30,423 nucleotides of DNA, from IMG/VR virus record IMGVR_UViG_3300030107_007041, positions 1-30,423 of that record, one strand, 5' to 3'. The notes under the pieces were generated by a model. That model did not search any database. It saw only the letters and a program-made list of their open reading frames with translations, and was not told the DNA's origin. Of the stretch, positions 14,515 to 30,330 are shown in pieces (the stretch's first letter is position 1; every line of letters begins with the position of its first letter). The DNA comes from a virus. The position numbers were made by a program, and so were the translations under genes.

Positions 14515-14931
14515 TTAGCGTCTTCTACGTCTCATAGCAAAACCCAATCCACCTAAGACACCGAGAGTCGCTGGTCCGGGAATCTCTATTGGCTTAATGG
14601 TTGTGAAGTTGTGAAAGTTTCCATCATAATCAGAGAATAGGAAACCATAAGTTTCCTCAAAACCAAGTCCATTACCGAAGACTGTGAACGCTTTCCATTC
14701 ACCGGGATCAATTTCGTAGTCATGAACAAAAGAACCAAATACTTCCGTGTATGTTAACCCATACAGAGAATCCTCATCTAGACGAATTCCATATCGAAAC
14801 TTATCAAATTCTTCCCAATATGAAACCCTAAAACGTCCGGACCAATTGTCAGTTTCAAAATATTGAACATCAACATAGTCTGGTGGTGCAATACTGGAAA
14901 GAATGCTGGCTGTAATCATAGCTGAAATCAT
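14515..14931 (-). CDS. Secreted protein with a PEP-CTERM-like sorting tail
   Basis: The product has 138 residues. The N-terminus (MISAMITASILSSIAPPD) resembles a signal peptide. The middle is aromatic and acidic beta sequence. The C-terminus reads IPGPATLGVLGGLGFAM followed by five arginines: a Pro-x-Pro turn, a Gly/Leu-rich membrane stretch, then a basic cluster. That is the three-part layout of PEP-CTERM sorting signals, which host exosortases use to anchor exported proteins; variants with PGP or PAP in place of PEP are common in Planctomycetes. GAAAGG lies 6 bases before the ATG. Such a signal in a phage protein implies use of the host's export and sorting system. Function of the body is unknown. 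Confidence 0.7.
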   Translation of the reverse strand: MISAMITASILSSIAPPDYVDVQYFETDNWSGRFRVSYWEEFDKFRYGIRLDEDSLYGLTYTEVFGSFVHDYEIDPGEWKAFTVFGNGLGFEETYGFLFSDYDGNFHNFTTIKPIEIPGPATLGVLGGLGFAMRRRRR

Positions 14932-16564: not shown

Positions 16565-18400
16565 CTATTCGGTCTGTGTATATAAAATTCCAGTAATTGG
16601 ACTGAACCAAGGATCGTTGGGCCCAAATGGATTTGGTTCAAAATCATCTCTTGTGTCAGAATCAAACTGTAACTCCTCTGGACCATAGAACTGCCATGGC
16701 AATCCAGCATCAGGAGCAAGGAACAGAGGAATATTTCTATCCCAGTCATTCCAGCAATCTTCGAATTTGACATTTCTGAATCTAGGACTCACACCATCAT
16801 GTCCGACAGTCCACGGACCTTCTGTGTTTTGTGTACCATCTTCATTCAGTTTATCATAAGACACTGTTGTGTGACCATTTCCTGTGGCTAAATCCTGTTT
16901 GCCGTGGAACATACAATTTTTAAACAGGTTGTTCTTACCAGGTCCACACCATCTAAAGATAACGGCAGGAATAGTACATCTTGGTAGATCAAGACCACCT
17001 GTGTTGGAGAGTTCCACATTTACCCATGCAACATTGTGTGCTTCACTTTGGCCAGGACATGCGTGTACGCCTTGCTGCTGACAACTGTGATTACCAAAAA
17101 CATCTCTAAAGATAATGTTTGTATGGATATAAGGAAACCCCCCATTAATTTGAATGTAATCTGTATGGCATCCTGTTGGGAAATCCTCATAGTTTTCATT
17201 GTGGTGTGTGATAAGAATATTGAGAGCCATTTGAATCCAGTGCATCTCAAGGACATCACATTGGATATAGTCCATGTGCATATTACGCATAAGAATACCT
17301 GCATGTCCTTCTGCAACGTATTTCTGGGTACAATCTGTCCAGTATTGAAGACCATGAATTCCAGAAAGTTTGTAATAGTTACCATTCCACCAGTCTTCTT
17401 CAAGACCACTAACAATAGAATTATCGTACCATCTTATTGCCCGTTGACTGACGCTTAGGAGACTTTCTTGTCCAGATTCGACATACACATTGTCAAGCCG
17501 TGTAAATATACTACCCATACCAATACCACCTTCACTCGATACAATCTTAGCGTCCTCACGAAGAACGCCAGGTGCAGGAGTGATCGTGACATATCTGTCT
17601 GTGGTTTGGAATGCACAAGTTGACCAATGTTGTCCACAATAAGCAGACCGGTCGAATACATGTTCGCCTTCCATCAAGTAAATAACCGTACCACCAACTT
17701 CTAAATTTGCGCCCTCGCCATTGTGTCGCACCGCACGAAGTATATTCTTATATGGATTCTCTAGTGTACCATCACCAGTTTCATCTGATCCATTTGGTGA
17801 AACATATCGTTCCACTACAGGCCATTGACCATAATTATTCGAAAATAGATTCACACCACTGTATTGTGGTCTATCGAGGTAGCTATTTGCCGCGGCAATT
17901 TCTGTAACATCTTGATCTAAAACAACACTTGGTCCATCAATGGGGAAGACCTCTGCTGTCACTGTAGTCTTTACATCTGGATATAGCCTAGTTTCGAGTC
18001 CAAACCAATACTCGTCTTCACCAGTGCGTTCATTGAAGGTTTGGTCGCGAACAACCACAATCTCATCTGCAATTGGTGTGGTCGTCCCCCAATATGCAAG
18101 CAATCGTGCAAGCGTTTTTCCTCCATCAGAATGCCAATTCTGGAAAAGGATGGAGATATCTTCTCCATCTACTGTACCATCCTTGTTAAAATCACCTTCG
18201 AATCCTTCTCGGTGTATTGTGTACTCGACACGATCCACACCCTCTAGGTGATATGCAACAACCCCCATGTCAAAAACACCCACAACATCTTGTTGTGGGA
18301 CAACATCAAAGTACGCGATTGGGGGTTCCTCGTGGGGGGTATACTGTCCTAAATCACCACCCTGACATAACAAAGTCAAGCCAATAAGTGAATGAAGCAT
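16565..18400 (-). CDS. Secreted dockerin-like/right-handed beta-helix protein
   Basis: The product has 611 residues from the ATG at 18400, chosen because AAGGAG stands 6 bases upstream; an in-frame ATG at 18451 has no such signal. Residues 1-15 (MLHSLIGLTLLCQGG) look like a short signal or lipoprotein signal. Residues 69-87 (GDFNKDGTVDGEDISILFQ) fit a dockerin-type Ca-binding loop, with Asp/Asn at alternating positions, of the style abundant in Planctomycetes. From residue 199 (YVSPNGSDETGDGT, NPYKNILRAV, GGTVIYLMEGEH) it matches the opening of secreted parallel beta-helix proteins related to pectate lyases. A polysaccharide-binding or degrading role is inferred; no catalytic residues were identified. 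It may be a host-derived gene or a spike. Confidence 0.65.
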   Translation of the reverse strand: MLHSLIGLTLLCQGGDLGQYTPHEEPPIAYFDVVPQQDVVGVFDMGVVAYHLEGVDRVEYTIHREGFEGDFNKDGTVDGEDISILFQNWHSDGGKTLARLLAYWGTTTPIADEIVVVRDQTFNERTGEDEYWFGLETRLYPDVKTTVTAEVFPIDGPSVVLDQDVTEIAAANSYLDRPQYSGVNLFSNNYGQWPVVERYVSPNGSDETGDGTLENPYKNILRAVRHNGEGANLEVGGTVIYLMEGEHVFDRSAYCGQHWSTCAFQTTDRYVTITPAPGVLREDAKIVSSEGGIGMGSIFTRLDNVYVESGQESLLSVSQRAIRWYDNSIVSGLEEDWWNGNYYKLSGIHGLQYWTDCTQKYVAEGHAGILMRNMHMDYIQCDVLEMHWIQMALNILITHHNENYEDFPTGCHTDYIQINGGFPYIHTNIIFRDVFGNHSCQQQGVHACPGQSEAHNVAWVNVELSNTGGLDLPRCTIPAVIFRWCGPGKNNLFKNCMFHGKQDLATGNGHTTVSYDKLNEDGTQNTEGPWTVGHDGVSPRFRNVKFEDCWNDWDRNIPLFLAPDAGLPWQFYGPEELQFDSDTRDDFEPNPFGPNDPWFSPITGILYTQTE

Positions 18401-18415
18401 TATGTTCTCCTTAAT

Positions 18416-18462
18416 AAAAAAATGCTCAATCTTACGATTCGCATCGCTCATAGCAGGAACAT
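18416..18462 (-). promoter_or_regulatory. Leader of the beta-helix gene with a terminator-like hairpin
   Basis: Upstream of AAGGAG, the minus strand has ATGTTCCTGCT (18462-18452), then a weak hairpin built on AATC-GTAA-GATT with outer TGC/GCA (18443-18423), then seven T residues (18422-18416). This is attenuator-like. The first element is fully complementary to a segment of the neighbouring ncRNA. A TATAAT (18466-18461) partly overlaps it, so the site may instead be promoter DNA. Confidence 0.4.
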
Positions 18463-25282: not shown

Positions 25283-26440
25283 TCATTTCAATCCCATTGC
25301 TCTTCTTTCAAATTCCGGAGCATTTTTTCTACGAATCCGTGCGTTTCGAATTCGCCTTGATACTTCATCTACATCACTTGTTCTTGAGCTAACCAATCGT
25401 TCTCGGTCTGCCCTCGTAACAAGACCATCTGGCGAATCAGTCCTTATGGTATCATCATATTCTACTTCTGAACCCCTGAGTGCATCAAAAGGAAGCTGCG
25501 ATTGACTCATTGCCAATCTTGTAAGAGGTACTGCGGGAATTAGATTTGCCCATCCAGAGCTACTTATAGCATCTTTAAGATTATCTACTGTTCCGGTGAC
25601 AAGGTTCCTACCATACTGAGCAGCCTTACTCCCAACGCTACTTGTATTATAAGGTGAAGCAGGCCCAAATTCATACCCTGCACCACGGCTTGAGGCATCT
25701 GCTGCCAGATCGGTCTGAGCTGGTTGATCAAACCAGCCTTCACCACCATCACCTACAAGAGCACCACCGATGTCATATCCTGAAAGACCTGAACCCACAG
25801 CAGAACCAACAACACCAGTGGCAGGATGTTTCAATAAATTACCCATCGTTTTTACCACACTTTTTCGACTTGGGCCATCTAAACTCGAAAGAGTGGGCTT
25901 AAACTCATCGGCAGCCTTTCCGATATCACTTCTCATCTTTTCAAGACGGGCTCTTTGTTCTGGAGTGTAATCATCCAATGCAATTTGATCAAGAGGCGTG
26001 GGCCCTTCAAGTGTTTTGGCCTGTCGTCTTAATTTATTTGCAGGATCCATTATTGATTCAGGATCACCATACTGGCTGATACTATGAGAAAGATATTGAC
26101 GATTTTTTGTTTTCTGTCGTTCTATTTCCTGCACGAGATCATCAATCCAATTATGTTGCTTACCAGACGCACCTCTCACTGGGTTATCGGCTGGGAGATC
26201 ACTGGGCTGCATTGTTGAAGCCAGACGCATTTCCGTTCCAACATTTGGATTCTGTGCAGCAGCGGCAGCAGAGTATCTTGCAGCACCGATCTGATCCATT
26301 GCTTGTCTGACACCTGGCTTCGACGATGGATCCTTTATATTATAGGTGGGAGGGAGGATTTCATCTGCAACATCTGCTGCTCTTTGTGCGAGCCGCCTTT
26401 TCTCCTCATCTTCCATGAGATGTTGAATAAAAGATTTCAT
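25283..26440 (-). CDS. Putative capsid-packaged protein, paralogue A
   Basis: The product has 385 residues from the ATG at 26440. The leader MKSFIQHLME ends L-M-E at residue 10, the same place as in T4 internal proteins. Residues 20-210 are helical and specific to this gene (TPEQRARLEKMRSDIG and others). Residues about 218-385 are nearly the same as the next gene's C-terminal module (GLSGYDIG, LVGDGGEG, QTDLAADASSRGAGYEFGPA, SSSGWANLIPAVPL, SQSQLPFDALRG), ending with a basic stretch and PEFERRAMG. Function unknown. It overlaps the upstream stop by one base (TGATG). Confidence 0.68.
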   Translation of the reverse strand: MKSFIQHLMEDEEKRRLAQRAADVADEILPPTYNIKDPSSKPGVRQAMDQIGAARYSAAAAAQNPNVGTEMRLASTMQPSDLPADNPVRGASGKQHNWIDDLVQEIERQKTKNRQYLSHSISQYGDPESIMDPANKLRRQAKTLEGPTPLDQIALDDYTPEQRARLEKMRSDIGKAADEFKPTLSSLDGPSRKSVVKTMGNLLKHPATGVVGSAVGSGLSGYDIGGALVGDGGEGWFDQPAQTDLAADASSRGAGYEFGPASPYNTSSVGSKAAQYGRNLVTGTVDNLKDAISSSGWANLIPAVPLTRLAMSQSQLPFDALRGSEVEYDDTIRTDSPDGLVTRADRERLVSSRTSDVDEVSRRIRNARIRRKNAPEFERRAMGLK

Positions 26441-27396
26441 CAATAACCCATTGCCCTTTTCTCAAATTCTGGAGCGATTGCTCTACGGCGCCGTGCGTGT
26501 GCTATACGGTTTTCTATATCGGATAGCGATCCAACATGATCTCCAGTCCTGTGTGCAACCAGAGCTTCGCGACCTGCTTGTGTAATGGGTCCATCTGGCG
26601 AATCAGTCTCTACGGTATCATCATATTCTACTTCTGAACCTCTGAGTGCATCAAAAGGAAGCTGCGATTGACTCATTGCCATTTTTGCAAGAGGTACTGC
26701 GGGAATTAGATTTGCCCATCCAGAGCTACTTATGGCATCTCTGAAATTATCCACGGTTCCCGTAGCAAGATTCTGACCATACTGTGCAGCTCTATCTGTA
26801 ACGCTATCTGTATTATAAGGTGAAGCAGGCCCAAATTCATACCCTGCACCACGGCTTGAGGCATCTGCTGCTAGATCGGTCTGGGCTGGACGATCAAGGA
26901 AACCTTCACCACCATCACCCACAAGAGCACTACCGATATCATACCCGGAGAGACCTGCACCTGCACCAGAACCAGCAACACCTGCACCACGACCTAGAGC
27001 ACCAAGTGCTTGTCGAGGGGTTATATTTGAGGGCTGCGGCCCTCGAAGGGCGGTAAGTACATCTGATCTTTGTGATGGGGTCATATTTGCCCTCGGTACA
27101 TCGAAATTTCGATGCCCCATGCCGTGTTTTGAGGCCTTGGCGGCATCGCGCACGCGATCAAAGTTTACGCTTCGCTTGTATTCAGGATGCTTTTCAAGAG
27201 GTATGCCTTTGACGTATGCGTCGAATTCCCATCCGCCTTTGCCGTATGGGGCCCCATGGGGGCCGCGGCCGAGGAGGGTACGGCGCTTATTTCGATATTC
27301 TTTCGGGTAATCATTTTCGAACCCAATTGGGTACTCTTGTTCCATGATTACTTCATTTACGATGCGAGATGTAAGTTGTTCTGTGATTGATTTCAT
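26440..27396 (-). CDS. Putative capsid-packaged protein, paralogue B
   Basis: The product has 318 residues. The leader is longer, MKSITEQLTSRIVNEVIME, with a possible I-M-E cut at residue 19. Residues 20-148 (PIGFENDYPKEYRNKRRTLL, MTPSQRSDVLTALRG) are unlike paralogue A, but residues about 149-318 share its module with only scattered changes, so an ancestral gene was duplicated and the front halves diverged or were swapped. The ATG lies one base after the FtsZ-like gene's stop (TAAAATG), so translation of the two is probably linked. No known function; the Gly/Ser-rich module contains no catalytic motif I can see. Confidence 0.68.
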   Translation of the reverse strand: MKSITEQLTSRIVNEVIMEQEYPIGFENDYPKEYRNKRRTLLGRGPHGAPYGKGGWEFDAYVKGIPLEKHPEYKRSVNFDRVRDAAKASKHGMGHRNFDVPRANMTPSQRSDVLTALRGPQPSNITPRQALGALGRGAGVAGSGAGAGLSGYDIGSALVGDGGEGFLDRPAQTDLAADASSRGAGYEFGPASPYNTDSVTDRAAQYGQNLATGTVDNFRDAISSSGWANLIPAVPLAKMAMSQSQLPFDALRGSEVEYDDTVETDSPDGPITQAGREALVAHRTGDHVGSLSDIENRIAHARRRRAIAPEFEKRAMGY

Positions 27397-27397
27397 T

Positions 27398-28585
27398 TTA
27401 GTTTTCCTTGGTATTTAGCTGTTTGAGCCTTTTATCGGAGACACTCAATCCAGAAACCAGAGTGAAGAGTCTGAGACTGTCTTTGTTGTCTTCGTAGATG
27501 CCACGGTGCAGGGTTGCTTCGGGACAAAGAGAAGAGAGTGTGTCGAACCCATAGGAAAGGCTGTCCATGAGTCCTACGGTGTTTTCCATGATGTCCTTAC
27601 CACCGACTGCGACACATGCGGCAACCTTTGCATTAGAGAGTTCGGCATCGGTGAGTAATGTCTTTTCGATGTTCGTCTTGACGGCACGAGAAACCGACTG
27701 CTCGTCCTCGAACTCCTTGAGCTTCGCGACACCCATCACCATCACTCCTCCGCACCTGAGCACGGTGGCATAATCGGTGGGATCGAATGAGGTATAGGGA
27801 GATGACTGGTTCGTGAGCACGTTGAATGCATGGAACAACCCAGAGATGGTGTTGTTCACGGTCGGCCAGAACTTCTTGACTGTGAGTCCTCTGTACATCT
27901 TCTCGATCTTTGCGTTGTCGAGGATCATGAGTGGTGAGATCTCATTGGCTTTTCCGAGTTCGCTCATCTTGTTCAGAACCTTATAGGCATTCCCAGAGAC
28001 ACGGGGAGAGACGGCTTCACCTCTGGTGGGCAACGAAAGAACAACACCGACACGTTTTTCGGGATCATCATGTCCGATGTACTTCATGTACTTCTTTGCC
28101 ACTTCGATGAGCACTTCGGCAGAACCACTACCGCTGCCTCCACCTGCTCCGACACAGACAAAGAGATGATCGACATTGCTCCCATAGATCTTTCTCATCA
28201 GATCAAAGACATGTTGCTTGTGCTGGTTCGCGGCATGATGACCACGTTCCATATCCTTGCCTGCACCCTGCTCACCACAATCAAAAAGGAACTTCTGGGA
28301 ACTAGGGAGATTCAGAGTGTCGAGATCCTGCTTCGATGTATTGACTGCAATGCACTTACGATATCCACGATCATAGAATGCCTTTGCGAGCCGTCCGCCA
28401 CCCTGACCAGATCCTATCCATGCGAACACCTGAGAACCACCGGATTCATCCTCGACAGCGGTTTCTTCTTCCTCTGGGATCTCGTAGTCTTCGAGATCGA
28501 TATCGGGGATCTCGATATCAGGAGTGATGTCTTGGGGACTGTCATCATGGGTTTCGTCAAAGCCGAAAGTCTCTTCTTCTGTCAT
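27398..28585 (-). CDS. FtsZ/tubulin-family GTPase-like protein
   Basis: The product has 395 residues. After an acidic N-terminal extension (residues 1-52) the tubulin/FtsZ order is present: GSGQGGG at 58-64 (first phosphate loop), NTSKQDL at 82-88 (FtsZ NTD-x-Q-x-L), GEQGAGKD at 104-111, the signature GAGGGSGSGS at 146-155 (FtsZ GGGTGTG), and the T7 loop region SFDPTDYATVLRCGGVMVMG at 266-285 with Asp268 and Asp271 where FtsZ has the catalytic aspartates. The C-terminal domain follows FtsZ (KVAACVAVGGKD, LRLFTLVSGL). It probably binds GTP and forms filaments that organise phage or host contents. AAAGGAG precedes the ATG. Codons are GC-rich, as in gp32. Confidence 0.85.
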   Translation of the reverse strand: MTEEETFGFDETHDDSPQDITPDIEIPDIDLEDYEIPEEEETAVEDESGGSQVFAWIGSGQGGGRLAKAFYDRGYRKCIAVNTSKQDLDTLNLPSSQKFLFDCGEQGAGKDMERGHHAANQHKQHVFDLMRKIYGSNVDHLFVCVGAGGGSGSGSAEVLIEVAKKYMKYIGHDDPEKRVGVVLSLPTRGEAVSPRVSGNAYKVLNKMSELGKANEISPLMILDNAKIEKMYRGLTVKKFWPTVNNTISGLFHAFNVLTNQSSPYTSFDPTDYATVLRCGGVMVMGVAKLKEFEDEQSVSRAVKTNIEKTLLTDAELSNAKVAACVAVGGKDIMENTVGLMDSLSYGFDTLSSLCPEATLHRGIYEDNKDSLRLFTLVSGLSVSDKRLKQLNTKEN

Positions 28586-28640
28586 ATATTGCTCCTTTTA
28601 TTTATTTAGGAGATATTAATATTAATGAATATGGTGATTA

Positions 28641-29345
28641 CTACTTCCTGCGCCGTCTATAGAAGAGTAATGGAATCGCCGCAAGAGGAACAAACACATA
28701 GTTCTCAGAGACAACAGCGTATTCCAGATCATCTATTTTAGGCATCTCATCGTCCATACCAAAATCGAACAGAGGCGGTACAGTCAACTCAAAGGATTCC
28801 TCCTGAGTCTCCGAGAATGCTCGTGTGAGCCGTCGGAGATATTCCATAGGGTCATCGGGTTCATTTCCAGATAAAAAGTCGAATCCCTGTCCATAACCAA
28901 GAATAAGATCCTCGTAGGCAACAGATCCCCCGAAGCCACCCTGTGCAGGATCAAACGCGGTCATATAGAAGAATGGTGCAGAAAGGAACCCTGTACTCTG
29001 TGAGGGGGGTGCAGGTGTGAGATCCTGATCATCCACCGGATTGTCCACCGGACCGGATGCAGTCGAACTCACCAGATCAACAGGAAGATTAGGCATGACA
29101 TTCGTGACATTACCGAAGCTCTCGATATACGATGCAACGGTATCAACGAACTCCTTGCCCAGTATCGTTCCACCGATAACTGCGGCAGCACCGAACTGAA
29201 GGACTTTCTTCTGGAGAGCCTTCTTCTCTTTCTCACAGGATAACAGATCTTTATTCTGTTTCTCCTTGAGCCGTTCTTTCTGGTTTTCTAATTCACGCTT
29301 TAGGTCTTCATAATCACGACATCGTGGGCAGCCGGGATCAGACAT
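28641..29345 (-). CDS. Coiled-coil membrane protein with a C-terminal hydrophobic/Arg tail
   Basis: The product has 234 residues. MSDPGCPRCRDYEDLKRELE begins with a Cys pair (Cys6, Cys9), then a coiled coil to about residue 48, then a possible membrane span (QFGAAAVIGGTILGKEFV). A Pro/Asp-rich linker and an aromatic acidic region follow. The end, YVFVPLAAIPLLF then YRRRRK, is a second hydrophobic stretch with a basic stop, laid out like C-terminal sorting or anchoring tails. No enzyme motif. It lies directly upstream of the FtsZ-like gene on the same strand, so it may tether those filaments to the membrane (inference). A hairpin covers its Shine-Dalgarno. Confidence 0.6.
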   Translation of the reverse strand: MSDPGCPRCRDYEDLKRELENQKERLKEKQNKDLLSCEKEKKALQKKVLQFGAAAVIGGTILGKEFVDTVASYIESFGNVTNVMPNLPVDLVSSTASGPVDNPVDDQDLTPAPPSQSTGFLSAPFFYMTAFDPAQGGFGGSVAYEDLILGYGQGFDFLSGNEPDDPMEYLRRLTRAFSETQEESFELTVPPLFDFGMDDEMPKIDDLEYAVVSENYVFVPLAAIPLLFYRRRRK

Positions 29346-29350
29346 ATGGG

Positions 29351-29377
29351 AAACTCCTCAAGTCTATTTAGGAGTTT
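29351..29377 (-). promoter_or_regulatory. Hairpin that can cover the Shine-Dalgarno of the coiled-coil gene
   Basis: AAACTCCT (29377-29370) pairs perfectly with AGGAGTTT (29358-29351) across an 11-nt loop containing AAATAGA. The 3' arm contains GAGGAG, the Shine-Dalgarno 8 bases before the ATG at 29345, so the stem would block translation. Confidence 0.5.
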
Positions 29378-29409: not shown

Positions 29410-30330
29410 TCAATAACGGAAATAGCGTGGAAAGGGATCGGGTGTCGGAGGATATGTTTTTCTGCGACCCGGAGCATATACTCCCCCCGGATACAGGAAT
29501 GGAGTGGGACGAGTGGGAGTAGGTCCAATTGGCGGCCCGGGCACCCTTGCAGGCGGGGGCGGAGGATCATAATTTGGGTTTACCATTGGCTGAAAGAATC
29601 CAGGCGACCCTAACGGTTGACCGGGGAATGGAATTGGTACTGGAACGGAGTATGGATTTTCCCATCCGGGCGGAATTTGTGGTTCAACATAACCCGGATC
29701 ACCGGGCTTAAGTGGTATTGGCCATGGAAATCGTTGAGGACCGGGATATGGATATTCCGGAACGAACTCCCAATCGAGATCACCATCTGCATCACTTTCA
29801 ACTGGTTCATTTGCCGCTTCACCCATATAGAACTTCTCTGAGTCATCACGGACATCCGTTTTATACTCGTGATGATCACGAACGGCATCGATGTAGTTAT
29901 GAACATCATCGGTGTAATCATCACTGTCTGTCTTCATTCCGTGGTTGTTCAGAGGACCGTGATTATTGATGATGGTGTCGTTGTCATGTCCAGAGAAAAC
30001 ACCGTCATATACGTGATCTTGGAACTCATCCGCCTTACCACCAGAGATATGTCCGATGTACCCACGAATCTCATTGAAGTGATCGTTCACCCTCTGTGAG
30101 AGTACTCTGCCTTCTGGCTTAGACATTATATTGGGCATATTCGTGTATGGTAGGCTTGATCTCCTACCCATACCAGTAAACGTGCTTGGGTTTCTCGCGC
30201 CTCCTACTGAGTGCATCTTGTCCCTCTTCTTCTTGATATAAGGGCCTTGAGCGAAATCCAGAGGAGAATCTAGAAAGGATTCGTTTGTCTGTTCGATTTG
30301 TTCTGTGATGTATTGTAGGAATGTTTTCAT
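29410..30330 (-). CDS. Putative capsid-packaged protein with a proline-rich C-terminal half
   Basis: The product has 306 residues. The leader MKTFLQYITE ends I-T-E at residue 10, matching the T4 capsid-targeting leader position and cleavage rule. Residues 11-175 are polar and His/Asp-rich (DNDTIINNHGPLNNHGMKTD, DDVHNYIDAVRDHHEYKTD). From about residue 185 the chain is roughly one third proline (PGPQRFPWPIPLKPGDPGY and similar) to an aromatic end (PDPFPRYFRY). This half resembles the gene at 24131. Unknown function; a good candidate for an unfolded, ejectable internal protein. A late promoter is 28 bases upstream and CGGAG precedes the ATG. Confidence 0.65.
   Translation of the reverse strand: MKTFLQYITEQIEQTNESFLDSPLDFAQGPYIKKKRDKMHSVGGARNPSTFTGMGRRSSLPYTNMPNIMSKPEGRVLSQRVNDHFNEIRGYIGHISGGKADEFQDHVYDGVFSGHDNDTIINNHGPLNNHGMKTDSDDYTDDVHNYIDAVRDHHEYKTDVRDDSEKFYMGEAANEPVESDADGDLDWEFVPEYPYPGPQRFPWPIPLKPGDPGYVEPQIPPGWENPYSVPVPIPFPGQPLGSPGFFQPMVNPNYDPPPPPARVPGPPIGPTPTRPTPFLYPGGVYAPGRRKTYPPTPDPFPRYFRY

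Follow-up and report, generated by a model that had tools for sequence, protein, structure and literature searches.

The window (the whole stretch of viral DNA analyzed, 30,423 nucleotides of IMG/VR record IMGVR_UViG_3300030107_007041) contains a single open reading frame that fills positions 27398 to 28585, is read from the minus strand (from 28585 down to 27398), and encodes 395 amino acids. We refer to the product as the phage tubulin (P0001 in our searches); relatives and their loci carry L numbers. The gene, its motifs, and its neighbors, all on the minus strand, are as follows.

29410 to 30330, minus strand: second upstream neighbor, with a head-targeting-like N terminus (MKTFLQYITEQ)
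28641 to 29345, minus strand: upstream neighbor, 234 amino acids, with a hydrophobic C terminus ending in RRRRK; no significant family match
28603 to 28609, minus strand: late-promoter-like CTAAATA (putative promoter, from its sequence), 24 nt upstream of the tubulin ATG
28592 to 28596, minus strand: ribosome-binding site AGGAG, a short distance 5′ of the tubulin ATG, from sequence
27398 to 28585, minus strand: coding sequence of the TubZ-like tubulin/FtsZ-superfamily GTPase, 395 amino acids plus stop
28436 to 28585, minus strand: acidic disordered N-terminal tail, residues 1 to 50, from pLDDT and composition
28484 to 28516, minus strand: N-terminal short motif, residues 24 to 34 (IEIPDIDLEDY), a pattern common to the planctomycete proteins
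28391 to 28414, minus strand: T1 nucleotide-binding loop GSGQGGGR, residues 58 to 65, from alignment and conservation
28121 to 28150, minus strand: T4 tubulin signature GAGGGSGSGS, residues 146 to 155, from alignment and conservation
27773 to 27784, minus strand: T7 loop catalytic pair D268-P-T-D271, aligning with DFAD of E. coli FtsZ
26440 to 27396, minus strand: downstream neighbor, with N terminus MKSITEQL, a paralog of the next gene; no family match

All four copies of CTAAATA in the window (minus strand, at 29371, 28609, 27418, and 14518) lie 22 to 29 nt before a start codon, and the element found upstream of the tubulin gene also precedes neighboring genes. Judging from its sequence and placement, CTAAATA may be a variant late promoter used by this phage group, which suggests that the phage tubulin may be expressed late. 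The two genes downstream of the tubulin gene (25283 to 26443 and 26440 to 27396, minus strand) are tandem modular paralogs that share a near-identical C-terminal region of ~190 amino acids (GLSGYDIG...GAGYEFGPASPYNT...) and differ in their N-terminal parts; both begin with MKS and are head-targeting-like.

The initial annotation, made from the sequence alone, had read the frame as an FtsZ/tubulin-family GTPase with the nucleotide-binding elements in order, including GAGGGSGSGS and both T7 aspartates. Alignment with E. coli FtsZ, RepX, TubZ, CetZ, the phage G protein, and PhuZ places these motifs in order and in register: T1 GSGQGGGR (residues 58 to 65), T2 N82, T3 GAG (107 to 109), T4 GAGGGSGSGS (146 to 155), T5 P186, T6 DN (223 and 224), H7 N244, and T7 D268/D271. 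N82, P186, D223, N224, N244, and D268 do not vary across 49 relatives, nor do most of the glycines, and D271 is conserved in at least 90% of them. The Pfam Tubulin family (PF00091) matches residues 56 to 167 above its curated cutoff (E value, 6.6e-12). When PDB sequences were searched, the best match was RepX/TubZ (4ei7; 2.2e-15), followed by FtsZ, and the RepX/TubZ match improved to 2.1e-25 with the family profile as query. An AlphaFold model built from 49 family sequences (pLDDT, 86; pTM, 0.84) likewise gave TubZ 4ei7 as its best Foldseek match in the PDB (E value, 4.2e-23; TM, 0.74 to 0.77), followed by CetZ2 and FtsZ. Profile search and structure prediction, which the initial annotation had named as possible refutations, both returned the FtsZ/tubulin family and so did not refute it. 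We conclude that, by its motifs and predicted fold, the region encodes a complete FtsZ/tubulin-superfamily GTPase.

Relatives of the phage tubulin are found at roughly 80 distinct viral loci in IMG/VR, with 30 to 84% identity and on contigs of up to 241 kb. Between close relatives for which dS was unsaturated, dN/dS was 0.03 to 0.09, and it was low for the N-terminal tail, too, in most close-relative pairs; the phage tubulin is under strong purifying selection. T4-type portal (PF07230) was detected in 10 of 31 viral contigs checked, across deep branches, and the window itself encodes gp6, gp25, gp53-type wedge, head-closure, tail-tube, hub, and gp32-type SSB families. By these gene families the source genome is T4-like, as had been proposed. 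Among 50,697 phage records, the only homolog was gp138 of Bacillus phage G (23% identity), and searches of isolated phages with P0001, L076, and L071 as queries gave phage G alone or no match. In the open-access literature, we found no report of this tubulin family in planctomycetes or T4-like phages.

The long acidic N terminus described in the initial annotation is evident from the translation, in which residues 1 to 48 include 22 D/E and no K/R; residues 5 to 40 are disordered in the AlphaFold model (pLDDT, <50). Ahead of the GTPase domain, the phage proteins and the planctomycete host proteins described below have a short motif in common, [ILV]Px(1-2)[ILVM]x[ILVMF], in many cases with E-D/E-x-Y after it. 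It occurs in 66 of 75 viral sequences and in 30 of 33 host sequences, versus ~9 expected in composition shuffles. The motif lies in the disordered stretch, as would be expected for a docking peptide. It also resembles the C-terminal peptide of FtsZ (E. coli ...LDIPAFLRKQAD); the charge differs, and we give the resemblance no weight. An I-P-E triplet near residue 38 had been suggested as a prohead-protease site. We rejected this site, since the triplet is not conserved and reads IPD, VPE, or KEP in close relatives.

Six cellular homologs were among the matches listed when 84,980 species were scanned; all are in Planctomycetota MAGs, with 46 to 52% identity to the phage tubulin along the whole GTPase domain. 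The named MAGs belong to the order Sedimentisphaerales, in which 28 of 161 genomes were positive; an even draw of 392 genomes across the phylum gave 4 positives, all in the same order. The bacterial copies are surrounded by gapA, pgk, rpe, accD, his, ruv, and similar genes, and one Sedimentisphaerales copy sits in a contig of 2,964,036 bp. We therefore rejected the explanation that these copies are phage contigs binned into MAGs. The chromosomal gene order gapA-pgk-rpe-tubulin-accD is conserved in several genomes (L080, L081, L176, and L177), and tandem pairs of bacterial tubulin genes occur at L078, L082, L144, L145, and L147. A further, very diverged paralog of ~350 to 370 amino acids, long-branched in the tree, is present in four planctomycete genomes (L124 to L129 and L179, 6392 to 7510). 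FtsZ_C was above the cutoff in none of the 161 genomes of the order, versus 13 of 14 controls. This agrees with published work, according to which all planctomycetes lack FtsZ and the driver of binary fission in Phycisphaerae is posed as a question (PMC6952346).

Most host proteins carry an N-terminal extension of 16 to 272 residues with almost no acidic residues (n = 26; K+R content of 25 to 47%, mostly 35 to 47%), and these basic extensions resemble histone H1 tails. Three second copies have an NtrC-type AAA lid at the C terminus, and in one of them (L166) a Fis-type helix-turn-helix (HTH) scored above the cutoff; the second copies fused to the NtrC-type lid are at L078, L166, and L167. Since there are two kinds of DNA-binding-like module on the host proteins, DNA is the likely cargo to which the filaments of the bacterial branch would be tethered, DNA binding itself being predicted from sequence. 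Neither a basic histone-H1-like tail nor a C-terminal HTH was found on the phage tubulin, whose tail is acidic.

The dockerin domain is common in planctomycetes. Secreted-type dockerin proteins (PF00404 above the cutoff) are encoded directly upstream of the tubulin gene at two related viral loci, L041 (5614 to 6378) and L048 (4255 to 5136); the L048 protein also has a subthreshold cohesin-like match. Together with the cellular homologs found, among the matches listed, in planctomycetes, these neighbors hint at a planctomycete host. The planctomycete connection raised in the initial annotation is supported by the close homologs. In the window, a 628-amino-acid protein (16565 to 18451, minus strand) contains a dockerin-like stretch, GDFNKDGTVDGEDISILFQNW, and has no family match. 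Another (14515 to 14931, minus strand) ends in IPGPATLGVLGGLGFAMRRRRR, like a PEP/MYXO-CTERM surface-sorting signal; as PEP-CTERM, it fell below the curated cutoffs.

In both trees, the host sequences form one clade (100/99) placed among the viral sequences (supports of 89 to 91). No bootstrap tree had the viruses as one group; the AU test does not reject that arrangement (P = 0.128), and the attempt to prove the direction of transfer failed on this test. One virus-to-bacterium transfer is favored by the sequence trees, although not proven. The initial annotation had asked whether the protein would group with bacterial FtsZ or with phage tubulins. The answer is neither: by sequence and modeled structure, the phage tubulin and the planctomycete chromosomal family form a branch of their own, with a fold nearest that of TubZ. 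The phage tubulin did not group with plasmid TubZ/RepX in trees whose deep outgroup placement is uncertain and suffers from long branches.

The favored function, which we consider about as likely as not and propose by analogy with known systems, is that of a TubZ-like filament positioning the DNA or capsids of the phage inside planctomycete cells. The protein would polymerize with GTP into a dynamic filament, and GTP would be hydrolyzed across the subunit interface, with the neighboring subunit inserting its T7 residues. The acidic disordered N terminus may dock a partner through the conserved motif, and, late in infection, the filament may position or segregate newly made capsids or DNA that is being replicated. 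Its role in a T4-like phage would then parallel that of TubZ for plasmids and of PhuZ for phiKZ-like phages. Counting against cargo positioning, the phage protein has no DNA-binding tail, and its gene has no tubR neighbor, no iterons, and no conserved neighborhood.

The main rival of cargo positioning is that the phage protein interferes with the tubulin of those hosts that have one. The phage protein might enter or cap the host's homologous filaments and, having no basic tail, free them from the nucleoid, so that chromosome organization or division is disrupted. Identity of ~50% over the whole GTPase domain and the shared N-terminal motif are consistent with such mixing, as is the opposition of a basic host tail and an acidic phage tail. 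However, within the order the host gene is present in only 28 of 161 genomes, and across the phylum in only 4 of 392 sampled; the viral family exceeds the host family in both size and diversity; and every residue for self-assembly and hydrolysis is retained, although a simple poison could do without them. We consider host interference unlikely.

Three further readings are rated less likely still because of the evidence that counts against each. The initial annotation had placed the gene inside a head-protein block, and the protein could be packaged in virus particles and enter the cell along with the DNA, as T4 Alt and the internal proteins do. Head-targeting-like N termini, defined by a loose pattern devised in this analysis and counted in one clade, occur in 11 of 107 genes within 3 genes of the tubulin gene, versus 6 of 225 further off (P = 0.006), and the late-promoter-like element upstream also fits. 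This much of the head-protein block stands, but no tubulin of the clade has such an N terminus itself, and the I-P-E triplet is not conserved. Nor is the neighborhood: neighbors vary across the family, even among 83%-identical relatives, and elsewhere in the family the tubulin gene adjoins portal and terminase genes (at L057), a gene resembling a DNA polymerase (at L025), or genes related to none of these. A conserved partner gene was also sought and rejected; the most widespread neighbor (c1, PHROG_455) was near the tubulin gene at just 19 of 58 loci. A packaged head protein is thus, in our view, improbable.

We think it more improbable again that the protein builds a phage-nucleus spindle, as a true PhuZ system does in phiKZ-like phages. 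PhuZ belongs to the same superfamily and was found in the viral fold search (E value, 3.4e-12), but with a TM of 0.51 and on a very long branch in the tree. The PhuZ family PHROG_4733 gave no significant match (E value, 0.091 for P0001; best value among 14 relatives, 0.0074), and with matches this weak we rejected PhuZ identity. The portal and baseplate are T4-type, and no homolog of the phiKZ nuclear shell was detected in 31 viral records, many of them fragments, in a search with no positive control. Least credible of all is a decoy or inhibitor of bacterial FtsZ, since, although the FtsZ model matches residues 51 to 332, the full catalytic site is conserved and FtsZ is missing from the likely host group (0 of 161 genomes above the FtsZ_C cutoff; none reported in the phylum [PMC6952346]). 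The FtsZ_C result strengthens the guess in the initial annotation that, with a planctomycete host, the protein would not be simply a decoy in host division.

A broader scenario, offered tentatively and somewhat on the doubtful side, is one tubulin lineage in both T4-like phages and planctomycetes without FtsZ. A phage would have been the source of the bacterial gene, which would then have been joined to histone-like or HTH DNA-binding modules and put to use as a DNA-tethered cytoskeleton in chromosome segregation or division, while phages would employ the version without such modules for transporting cargo of their own or for subverting the host filament. What surprises here is the branch in bacteria without FtsZ, in which DNA-binding modules are attached. 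A complete tubulin-superfamily GTPase, usually with a histone-like tail and with about half its residues common to phages, is encoded on the chromosome in part of one planctomycete order that lacks FtsZ. For part of the phylum, this protein is a concrete candidate for a missing cytoskeleton, and the finding makes a testable case of virus-cell exchange of a cytoskeletal gene. Phage tubulins with a known role come from jumbo phiKZ-like phages and the plasmid-prophage c-st (PMC7950403); the present family is a further large branch, separate from these, that T4-like phages carry.

Compared with known tubulin-type systems, the phage tubulin shares with bacterial FtsZ the fold, the GTP-site motifs, and the T7 aspartates, but it has no C-terminal conserved peptide, and FtsZ_C (PF12327) is absent from its Pfam matches up to an E value of 1. 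Its score against the NCBIfam FtsZ equivalog TIGR00065 (62 bits) is far under the cutoff of 295.2, and we rejected a true FtsZ on this basis. PhuZ is likewise a tubulin-superfamily protein carried by a phage, but the sequence and fold matches to it are very weak and the virion genes here are T4-like. Gp138 of Bacillus phage G, an FtsZ-like protein and the sole isolate-phage homolog, is a full-length match but is only 23% identical and falls outside the family in trees. FtsZl1/Tubulin_2 (PF13809), to which planctomycete proteins with a kinase domain belong (PMC2875224), matches P0001 weakly near T4-T5 (0.019; 14.7 bits versus a cutoff of 27); T6-H7 could not be identified in FtsZl1 (PMC2875224), whereas it is intact in the phage tubulin. 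The best match among viral proteins by Foldseek, an uncultured Caudovirales protein (A0A6J5RW92; E value, 2.2e-31; TM, 0.80; 25% identity), has a similar fold and was automatically named "FtsZ Cell division GTPase," an annotation by name only. The bare existence of viral "FtsZ" genes is hence not new, with at least one autoannotated example of similar fold in public databases. TubZ/RepX of Bacillus and Clostridium plasmids and phage c-st is the best match in both structure and profile and is also carried by mobile elements. Several relatives of the phage tubulin have the TubZ-like C-terminal domain PF22453 (at or above the cutoff in L051, L069, L076, and L078; not reported for P0001). Unlike TubZ/RepX, to which it is ~22% identical, the phage tubulin has a conserved acidic N-terminal motif and no long C-terminal tail. 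No small tubR-type HTH gene was seen among the neighboring open reading frames inspected and no centromere iteron array was found at the gene, and we rejected a TubRC-type partition cassette for these reasons. By sequence and predicted structure, we conclude that the protein is a phage tubulin of a TubZ-like branch that lies outside FtsZ, PhuZ, and the TubZ partition cassette.
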